Source of the DNA: Aquificota bacterium
GTDB taxonomy: Bacteria; Aquificota; Aquificia; Aquificales; QOAS01
Reading direction: 5' to 3'
Assembly (NCBI GenBank): GCA_013154305.1
Contig: JAADCT010000033.1
Coordinates: 1 to 45,866 of the forward strand
Length of the DNA stretch: 45,866 bases
Made by a program: the position numbers and the translations under genes. Below are positions 7,087 through 8,721 of the stretch, one piece after another (position 1 is the stretch's first letter; each line of letters starts with the position of its first letter). A model generated the notes under the pieces. That model ran no database searches, was not told where the DNA came from, and saw nothing but the letters and a program-made list of their open reading frames with translations.

Positions 7087-7662
7087 ATGGACCGCCGAGC
7101 GGAAAAACTCTTTAACCTTTACAAGTTCTTCGCCTTCCTCTTCTCCTATCCGCGGGACGAAAGTTTTTTTGAAAACCTCGAAAGGTTTTACCCCTTCGAC
7201 GACCGCCGCCCGCTGGAGGAGTTAAAAAGCGTACCCTTGGAGGAGCTTCAGGCCGAATACACCTCCCTTTTTGAGTTTCGCTACGGGGGCGTTCCCTGCA
7301 AACCCTACCAGAGCTTCTTTTCGCCCGAGCGGCTCCTGATGGGGGAGGCGGCCCTCTCGTCGGCCCGCTTTTACGACCTTTTCGGTCTGGAGGTCAAAAA
7401 CGAGCTTCCCGACCGCGCCTCGGTCCAATTCGACTTTGCCGCCTTTTTGGTAAAACTGGCGGCGGAAACGGACGACCCCTCCGAGAGGAAAAAAGTTTCG
7501 TTGCTCTACGTGGAGTTTTTCGAAAAACACCTGCGGTGGACGCGCGAGCTGGCCCGTTGCGTGGAGGAAAACTCCTCAATCCGACCCCTTAAGGAGCTGG
7601 TCCGCAGGCTGGAGGAATTCCTGTCGGAGGAGGAAAAAAGAGTTAAGACGACTGGAGTTTGA
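7087..7662 (+). CDS. TorD/DmsD/NarJ-family molybdoenzyme chaperone
   Basis: A 191-aa all-helical protein fitting the TorD family of cytoplasmic chaperones that bind Tat signal peptides and assist cofactor insertion into molybdopterin oxidoreductases. Visible family features are EYTSLFEFRYGGVPCKPYQSFF (first half shown by EYTSLFEF near 57, then CKPYQSFFSPE near 71) and the following ERLLMGE helix. No molybdoenzyme gene lies in the window, so its client is elsewhere. Its last 20 nt overlap the end of the convergent prefoldin beta-like gene. The start is the ATG at 7087; no Shine-Dalgarno sequence is seen. Confidence 0.78.
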   Translation: MDRRAEKLFNLYKFFAFLFSYPRDESFFENLERFYPFDDRRPLEELKSVPLEELQAEYTSLFEFRYGGVPCKPYQSFFSPERLLMGEAALSSARFYDLFGLEVKNELPDRASVQFDFAAFLVKLAAETDDPSERKKVSLLYVEFFEKHLRWTRELARCVEENSSIRPLKELVRRLEEFLSEEEKRVKTTGV

Positions 7663-7921
7663 AACCGGCGGTCGTAAGCTTGGCCTCCAGTTCCAGCAAA
7701 AGGGCGCGGATTTCCTTTTCCCTCTCCTCGAGGTATTGGATGGCCTCAAGGTAGTTGCTTTCGACCATCACCGGTCCGAGGTTTATGTAGATTTTGCGGC
7801 CCGGTTCGAGGTTTTTCAAAAAGTTTTTAACGCGCTCGATTTGCTCGAGTTCGGCCCGCAGGAGCTGAACCTGCAAAACGAGCGCCTCCTGCGGCTGGGG
7901 CTGAAGCTGAGGCGGGTTCAT
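7643..7921 (-). CDS. Prefoldin beta-like subunit (bacterial)
   Basis: A 92-aa protein made of two coiled-coil helices around a short beta hairpin. The central stretch KIYINLGPVMVES followed by LEAIQYLEEREKEI matches the prefoldin beta pattern (vy..vG..lv... eA...L..r). The N-terminal helix ALVLQVQLLRAELEQIERV has heptad spacing. It is the second gene of a two-gene unit, 41 nt behind the alpha-like gene, with GGAGG about 8 nt before the ATG. Prefoldin hands unfolded proteins to group II chaperonins in archaea and eukaryotes; the bacterial client system is unknown. An unrelated small coiled-coil protein is the alternative, but pairing with an alpha-like gene argues against that. Confidence 0.75.
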   Translation of the reverse strand: MNPPQLQPQPQEALVLQVQLLRAELEQIERVKNFLKNLEPGRKIYINLGPVMVESNYLEAIQYLEEREKEIRALLLELEAKLTTAGFKLQSS

Positions 7922-7962
7922 AACCGCTTCCTCCGAAAGGTTTGAAGGGAGAAGGGAGGAAG

Positions 7963-8391
7963 TTACTTACCTTCCTCCTTCTTCTCCTCCTCCTGGGTCG
8001 TTCCGCGGACGAGTTGGTCGATTTGGGTGTAGAGGTCGGCTATGGTTTGTTCGAGAACGAGCCTGAGGGCGAGCAACCTTTCGATTTCGTCCTCGATGTA
8101 CTTGACGGCCTCGTCGTAGGAGAGCTCGGCCGAAATGTTTTGTCCGACCGAAACGACCACGCGGTCGAGGTTTTCAATCTTCATCTCGACCTGAGCTATC
8201 GAACCGACGGGAATGAGAACGTTTTTACCCTGTCCGAGCCTTTTGAGCGTTCTCAGGGTTGCGACCGTCTGCCGGAGGGCGTTGATGGCCGCGTCCAAGG
8301 CGGCGATTTCGGCCCTGATGCTTTCGATTTGGGCGATGAGCGCCCTTACCTGGTCCTCAACCCTGACTTGGGCTTCCTTTTTTTCAGCCAT
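7963..8391 (-). CDS. Prefoldin alpha-like subunit (bacterial)
   Basis: A 142-aa protein with the prefoldin alpha plan: N-terminal coil (VEDQVRALIAQIESIRAEI), a central beta-hairpin region containing VLIPVGSIAQVEMKIEN and VVVSVGQNISAELSYDEA, and a C-terminal coil (IEDEIERLLALRLVLEQTI). The block VLIPVGS / V.V.VG / S.DEA..Y is the hallmark of the GimC alpha family. The ORF track begins 21 codons upstream; I choose the ATG at 8391 because AAGGAGGTG lies 6-7 nt before it. The C-terminus is an acidic/lysine tail (EEEKKEEG), as in many alpha subunits. Together with the following beta-like gene it could form the alpha2-beta4 jellyfish complex. Confidence 0.85.
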   Translation of the reverse strand: MAEKKEAQVRVEDQVRALIAQIESIRAEIAALDAAINALRQTVATLRTLKRLGQGKNVLIPVGSIAQVEMKIENLDRVVVSVGQNISAELSYDEAVKYIEDEIERLLALRLVLEQTIADLYTQIDQLVRGTTQEEEKKEEGK

Positions 8392-8440
8392 CCCGGCCAC
8401 CTCCTTAAGTTGTTTCCTGTTAGGAAAATTTAGCTTGGCG

Positions 8441-8448
8441 TTTATAAT
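8441..8448 (-). promoter_or_regulatory. -10 region of the prefoldin operon
   Basis: The minus strand reads ATTATAAA, with a leader of about 50 nt that ends in the AAGGAGG site of the alpha-like gene. A TTGACA occurs upstream (8476-8471) but at about 22 nt spacing, which is too long for a normal -35. Confidence 0.4.
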
Positions 8449-8521: not shown

Positions 8522-8721
8522 TGCTTGGGAACCCCGCCCTGCCCGGTGCCGCGGGGGCGTTATTCCCTTCGGGGACTACGGGCACCCAAAGAGGGAAGAC
8601 GGGTTCCCCGGCGTCCCCTAAAAAGGTCGGAAGGTAGGGGGCACGGGGACAGTCTTCCCACCTAAACCTTTGGGTCCCATCTGGGAATAACAGTCCCCCG
8701 CGCCCGCTAGGCGGGGCGGAC
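8522..8721 (+). ncRNA. ssrS: 6S RNA, candidate
   Basis: About 200 nt without an ORF that fold into one long rod, the hallmark of 6S RNA, the RNA that binds the housekeeping RNA polymerase holoenzyme. From the outside in: CCCCGCC (8532) with GGCGGGG (8710); CGCGGGGG with CCCCCGCG; GTTATTCCC with GGGAATAAC; then a one-sided bubble (12 nt on the 5' side, about 4 nt on the 3' side); then ACCCAAAG with CTTTGGGT, GGGAAGAC with GTCTTCCC, and GTCCCCTA with TAGGGGGC. The large asymmetric central bubble and total size fit 6S RNA. It lies directly before the 5-formyl-THF cyclo-ligase gene, the ssrS-ygfA arrangement of many bacteria. Exact ends are estimates. Confidence 0.8.

Follow-up and report, generated by a model that had tools for sequence, protein, structure and literature searches.

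Two adjacent minus-strand genes in the genome of a thermophilic Aquificota bacterium probably encode a gamma-prefoldin (gPFD) chaperone system, in which a filament-forming protein with two beta-hairpins would be capped at its filament ends by a short partner with only one; we put the probability of this reading at about 0.55. The first gene (gene 1, the gPFD gene; positions 7963..8391, minus strand) encodes a 142-aa alpha-class protein with two hairpins. The second (gene 2, the partner gene; 7643..7921, minus strand) follows after an intergenic spacing of 41 nt and encodes a 92-aa beta-class protein with a single hairpin. All positions refer to the window, the whole stretch of 45,866 nucleotides that was analysed. 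The original prediction that two adjacent minus-strand prefoldin-fold genes lie here, and that a bacterium thus carries a prefoldin pair with one alpha-class and one beta-class member, holds for what is a genuine Aquificota genome. Its further claim of a matched alpha/beta (alpha2-beta4) operon does not, as gene 1 is gamma and gene 2 falls below the canonical beta model TIGR02338.

To our knowledge, gPFD, a thread-forming chaperone, has so far been studied in one archaeon, Methanocaldococcus jannaschii. New here are the spread of gPFD in Aquificota and its conserved beta-class partner, which is found in M. jannaschii as well. In the open-access literature we found no reference to the partner, although silence there says little about novelty; the search returned nothing for "bacterial prefoldin", nothing for MJ0648 in the listed papers, and nothing relevant for prefoldin together with Aquifex or other Aquificota. 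More tentatively, gPFD may be no peculiarity of M. jannaschii but lie at the heart of a two-gene filament system that is conserved in deep-branching thermophilic bacteria and in methanogens of vents, and whose natural end-cap, a prefoldin beta pared down to scarcely more than its hairpin, has been overlooked. In many Aquificota gPFD could also be central to a larger module that takes in UPF0128, membrane proteins and a Csm5-like protein. A filament-type prefoldin is in any case spread through a bacterial phylum, including a genome where the hexameric prefoldin and a group II chaperonin appear absent. Because the partner lies beside gPFD, and overlaps it in M. jannaschii, filament control is testable in an organism and with a purified system already in use. 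A natural cap, if true, would also be a useful part for gPFD nanomaterials.

Gene 1 is almost certainly an orthologue of M. jannaschii gPFD

Gene 1 matched the Pfam Prefoldin model (E 1.4e-25, 90 bits; cut-off 23.2) and TIGR00293, a broad model (98.8 bits; cut-off 53.9), so that the profile match foreseen for this gene lies far above both cut-offs; no other PF02996 match was found in the window's genome. The closest solved structure was 6vy1, the M. jannaschii gPFD filament named 'prefoldin subunit alpha 2' in the PDB (E 2.5e-47), with true alpha subunits reaching only 3.6e-6 and 2e-5 in the same search. The gPFD encoded in the M. jannaschii genome of our set (G142) is identical to 6vy1 over 134 residues, and gene 1 shares 61% identity with it. 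Over residues 11-132, gene 1 is 61-67% identical to seven archaeal gPFDs, 39-52% to those of other Aquificota families and 15-25% to the alpha subunits of Methanococci. With 9 or 11 alpha sequences included, the trees placed a branch of 100/100 support between alpha and gamma (the bacterial copies together with archaeal gPFD). By both identity and tree gene 1, at first taken for a prefoldin alpha, is therefore gamma, an alpha-class chain with two hairpins.

The hairpin region of gene 1 is 78-81% identical to archaeal gPFD, compared with 50-63% for the coiled-coil helices. The hairpins are thus the best conserved part, which is what retention of the assembly interface would predict, and from this conservation the gene 1 product would be predicted to self-assemble into filaments, which may also form in the window's bacterium. 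An AlphaFold2 model of a 91% identical orthologue (G109, locus L033) shows a helix, four strands and a helix, and superposes on the filament subunit 6vy1 with a TM score of 0.90 and an rmsd of 1.4 A over 117 columns. The two systems share the order helix, two hairpins, helix, and a beta-class gene lies 3' of gPFD at both loci. They differ in that the window's host is a bacterium in which neither an alpha prefoldin nor a thermosome was detected, and in that the M. jannaschii partner is a 54-aa mini-protein whose gene overlaps that of gPFD, whereas the window's partner has 92 aa with arms.

Gene 2 encodes a short beta-class protein

Gene 2 matched Pfam Prefoldin_2 (E 1.5e-10, 41.4 bits; cut-off 27.6) and is the only PF01920 match found in the window's genome. 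Against TIGR02338 (gimC_beta), the canonical beta model, it scored 23.5 bits, under the cut-off of 73. Based on an AlphaFold2 model with a pLDDT of 87, the protein is predicted to adopt the beta-class prefoldin fold, with a helix at residues 10-36, a single hairpin (strands 44-47 and 52-55) and a helix at 57-84. Both predicted structures thus contain the hairpins that were looked for, two strands here and four in the gene 1 orthologue. The top Foldseek matches of the gene 2 model were the prefoldin beta subunits of Pyrococcus and Thermococcus (including beta2) and of the archaeal GimC 1fxk, with a probability of 1.00 yet with every E-value above 0.001. The model aligned with archaeal prefoldin beta (1fxk_A/B, 2zdi_A/B, 2zqm; beta2 3aei) over ~71-74 columns at 1.7-2.4 A. 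Gene 2 differs from these proteins in its shorter arms and 14-20% identity, and in being linked to gPFD and not to alpha. Thus the naming of gene 2 as a prefoldin beta is right as to the fold and the Prefoldin_2 match but does not extend to the canonical subunit.

We rejected a canonical alpha/beta hexamer operon: identity and tree both make gene 1 a gamma, and gene 2 lies below the beta equivalog cut-off. Of what marks a canonical GimC system, neither a canonical alpha subunit, nor a canonical TIGR02338 beta subunit, nor a group II chaperonin that would accept its clients was found in the genome. The assembly from which the window comes has 1.15 Mb and is 94% complete; its sole PF00118 (Cpn60) match is GroEL (813 bits), and the same search found no thermosome or other group II chaperonin in it. 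Because GroEL is the only chaperonin found, it is possible that the pair serves GroEL.

A partner gene is conserved with gPFD in almost all genomes examined

Rather than being peculiar to one bacterium, gPFD is present in 47 of 136 Aquificota genomes, and also in 7 of 36 genomes of Methanococci. A search of 85,462 species genomes with the motifs VGSIAQVE and KYIEDEI, which divergent forms would escape, was confirmed only in the window's genus and in Methanocaldococcaceae-like archaea, so that gPFD may occur in further phyla too. A beta-class partner of 49-99 aa was found at gPFD in all five Aquificota families that carry gPFD and at all seven archaeal loci. According to an ORF survey, the partner lies 3' of gPFD in the window's family f1 (86-92 aa, 41-59 nt gap), in f3 (50-71 aa, 9-56 nt gap) and in f4, where it is divergent (81-82 aa, 54-64 nt gap). 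It overlaps the gPFD gene by 20-32 nt in f5 (49-55 aa) and by 17-29 nt in all seven archaea (50-58 aa). In f2, which we take to be the Aquifex group, a partner of 93-99 aa is encoded a few genes downstream. The M. jannaschii partner (locus L096, 3545-3709, reverse complement) overlaps the end of gPFD by 20 nt and has the sequence MKKKLNNEFQEVIDFLKSLPEGRRVYIEMSGIWIEVTKEEAINYLKSKINEKEA. In f5 and the archaea the partner start codon lies inside the gPFD gene, which suggests that the two are translationally coupled.

Several observations argue that the partners are real. In an unbiased Pfam scan, all 18 Prefoldin_2 matches above the cut-off across the phylum were at gPFD loci, counting with its locus the G110 partner, which lies on a separate contig through an assembly break. 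Scanned singly, 18 of 20 representative partners matched Prefoldin_2 at E 0.01 or better. Family-specific HMMs also recognised partners from the remaining families, with E-values of ~1e-6 to 1e-21 (set size fixed at 1000), and gave only marginal matches to gPFD itself. Furthermore, the partners have a dN/dS of ~0.03-0.36 where dS could be estimated (18 pairs, overlap codons excluded), and this purifying selection indicates real genes. Chance small ORFs were rejected on the strength of the selection, the unbiased scan and the cross-family HMM matches.

The partners vary mainly in their arms, and many consist of a hairpin and short arms only. In the window's genus 37-41 residues precede the hairpin and 35-40 follow it, compared with 15-34 elsewhere and ~15-23 in f5 and the archaea.

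A larger gene cluster surrounds gPFD in some Aquificota

In f2 (locus L092), f5 (L097) and f3 (L098), a conserved cluster around gPFD includes UPF0128 (PF03673), a 239-242 aa protein and two membrane proteins, with a YfdX-family protein and a DUF1931 protein added in f3. The Aquifex form of the 239-242 aa protein matched Csm5 in PADLOC (4.5e-7) and scored 27.8 bits with TIGR01899, under the cut-off of 38.3; the f3 form had no Csm5 profile match. UPF0128 and gPFD are each found in 47 genomes of the phylum and co-occur in 45 (Fisher p 5e-31, uncorrected for kinship or linkage); the four genomes with only one of the two are incomplete assemblies. In Methanococci the association is less tight, with UPF0128 in 16 of 36 genomes, including six of the seven gPFD holders. 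Two UPF0128 paralogues are encoded on other contigs of the window's genome, at a distance from gPFD (G000:C78:2645-3301 and G000:C35:11298-11966), for which a PDB sequence search yielded no relative.

A model for filament capping and its alternatives

Filaments of M. jannaschii gPFD grow through two hairpin sheets, X1 and X2, with the coiled coils forming a brush, and TERM, a gPFD mutant whose X2 is dead, caps the filament by attaching through X1 (PMC4895442). By itself gPFD polymerises into filaments in vitro, and filaments are also present in M. jannaschii cells. It is reported to interact with neither alpha nor beta; its transcripts rise 26-fold after lethal heat shock, and its role in the cell has been described as unclear (PMC11117396).

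We propose that gPFD subunits, each with two beta-hairpins between two coiled-coil helices, would assemble through hairpin-hairpin contacts into a filament, with the protruding coiled coils serving as a brush that holds unfolded proteins. The partner, which likely binds the gene 1 product, would occupy an exposed hairpin where the next gPFD subunit would otherwise bind; because it has only one hairpin, it could dock but not extend, so that no second hairpin would be offered to a following subunit and the filament end would be capped. Capping might set filament length, or it might hold gPFD in short oligomers until the ratio of the two proteins changes on heating. We infer this role from the lone hairpin of the partner, its conserved pairing with gPFD and the example set by TERM. 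Gene 2 resembles TERM in having one working hairpin sheet and no second from which to extend, and a like effect on filament ends is proposed; however, TERM was engineered from gPFD by mutation, whereas gene 2 is a natural beta-class protein and a putative cap. Assembly as such does not require the partner, because M. jannaschii gPFD polymerises on its own in vitro. With almost no arms in f5 and the archaea, the partner would be ill suited there to holding clients as a tentacle does, which speaks for a role in controlling assembly. The longer arms in the window's genus mean that the partner may there hold clients rather than only cap. A low-confidence AlphaFold2 model of a read-through gPFD-partner fusion from L033 (TAA read as Q; pLDDT 69) informs on secondary structure only.

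The two proteins could instead build a closed alpha2-beta4-like hetero-oligomer that forms no filaments, holds unfolded proteins and either delivers them to GroEL or leaves them to fold. Two-hairpin and one-hairpin subunits are the composition of the classical hexamer, and the window's partner both has longer arms than other partners and is placed by Foldseek with canonical beta. We nevertheless consider such an assembly unlikely: gene 1 is gamma rather than alpha, and M. jannaschii gamma reportedly binds neither alpha nor beta (PMC11117396), while gene 2 scores below TIGR02338, most partners are too short for tentacles and no group II chaperonin was found in the window's genome. The hairpin-to-hairpin contact on which capping depends would equally fit a partner that starts or branches filaments or is built into them as a co-subunit, setting their number and spacing rather than stopping growth, and the gene overlap in f5 and the archaea suggests joint production in a fixed ratio. 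This we regard as quite improbable, as a one-hairpin subunit lacks a second assembly surface with which to continue the chain, and the filaments that gPFD forms alone in vitro (PMC11117396) indicate that no nucleator is required.

The presence of gPFD and the partner within the larger cluster of f2, f3 and f5, and the 45 genomes shared between the 47 holders each of UPF0128 and gPFD, would also fit a partner that serves as an adaptor between gPFD and some other component (UPF0128, the Csm5-like protein, the membrane proteins or GroEL) and exerts no control over assembly. However, the cluster genes are not beside the pair in the window's genus or in archaea, about half of the Methanococci with UPF0128 are without gPFD, and partners of 49-58 aa leave little space for a second binding domain, so that we think an adaptor very unlikely. 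Capping of gPFD filaments by the partner is the reading we prefer.

Probable gene exchange with vent methanogens

The gPFDs of f1 and of archaea form one clade with 100/99 support. As f1 belongs to the same order as f2 and f3 and its gPFD nevertheless groups with archaea, gPFD was likely exchanged between vent Aquificota of the window's lineage and Methanocaldococcaceae. Monophyly of bacterial gPFD was not rejected by an AU test (p 0.157), with the root on a long branch. Furthermore, gPFD is wider in Aquificota (47/136) than in Methanococci (7/36), which would give a bacterial source no less probability than an archaeal one. The suggested old transfer from archaea is thus well supported as an exchange with Methanocaldococcaceae, but the one-way direction from archaea to bacteria is not established.

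Genomic context and expression signals

Both genes are preceded by strong ribosome-binding sites, read from the sequence and in agreement with the earlier description: AAGGAGGTGG for gPFD (8397..8406, minus strand) and GGAGGA for the partner (7929..7934, minus strand). A shared -10 region had also been suggested, and a TATAAA box (8441..8446, minus strand), conserved in the relative L035, is a candidate. In contrast to the box, the TTGACA found 24 nt upstream of it is not conserved; no consensus -35 element occurs at the proper spacing, and the box is absent from our promoter scan.

The pair is adjoined by RNase Y and 5-FCL genes, with identical neighbours in the relative G111. Archaeal contamination of the assembly was rejected: the contig is 45.9 kb long with bacterial genes flanking the pair, and gPFD is shared with four further genomes of the genus at 89-90% identity, in one case among the same neighbours. 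The bacterial neighbourhood originally described stands as to RNase Y and the tmRNA, which was confirmed in the window, but not as to a 6S RNA, which Rfam did not confirm.

6S RNA genes often adjoin ygfA/5-FCL. Between 5-FCL and gPFD, upstream of gPFD and on the same strand, lies a GC-rich segment of ~185 nt (8534-8719, minus strand) that is strongly conserved with L035 and adjoins the ygfA/5-FCL-like gene. Its predicted fold is a long interrupted rod resembling 6S RNA and, as it has no Rfam match even at E 1, it would be a divergent 6S candidate. On the other side of the pair lies a convergent plus-strand gene (7087-7662; 191 aa) that looks NarJ/TorD-like by eye and runs over the final 20 nt of the partner gene.
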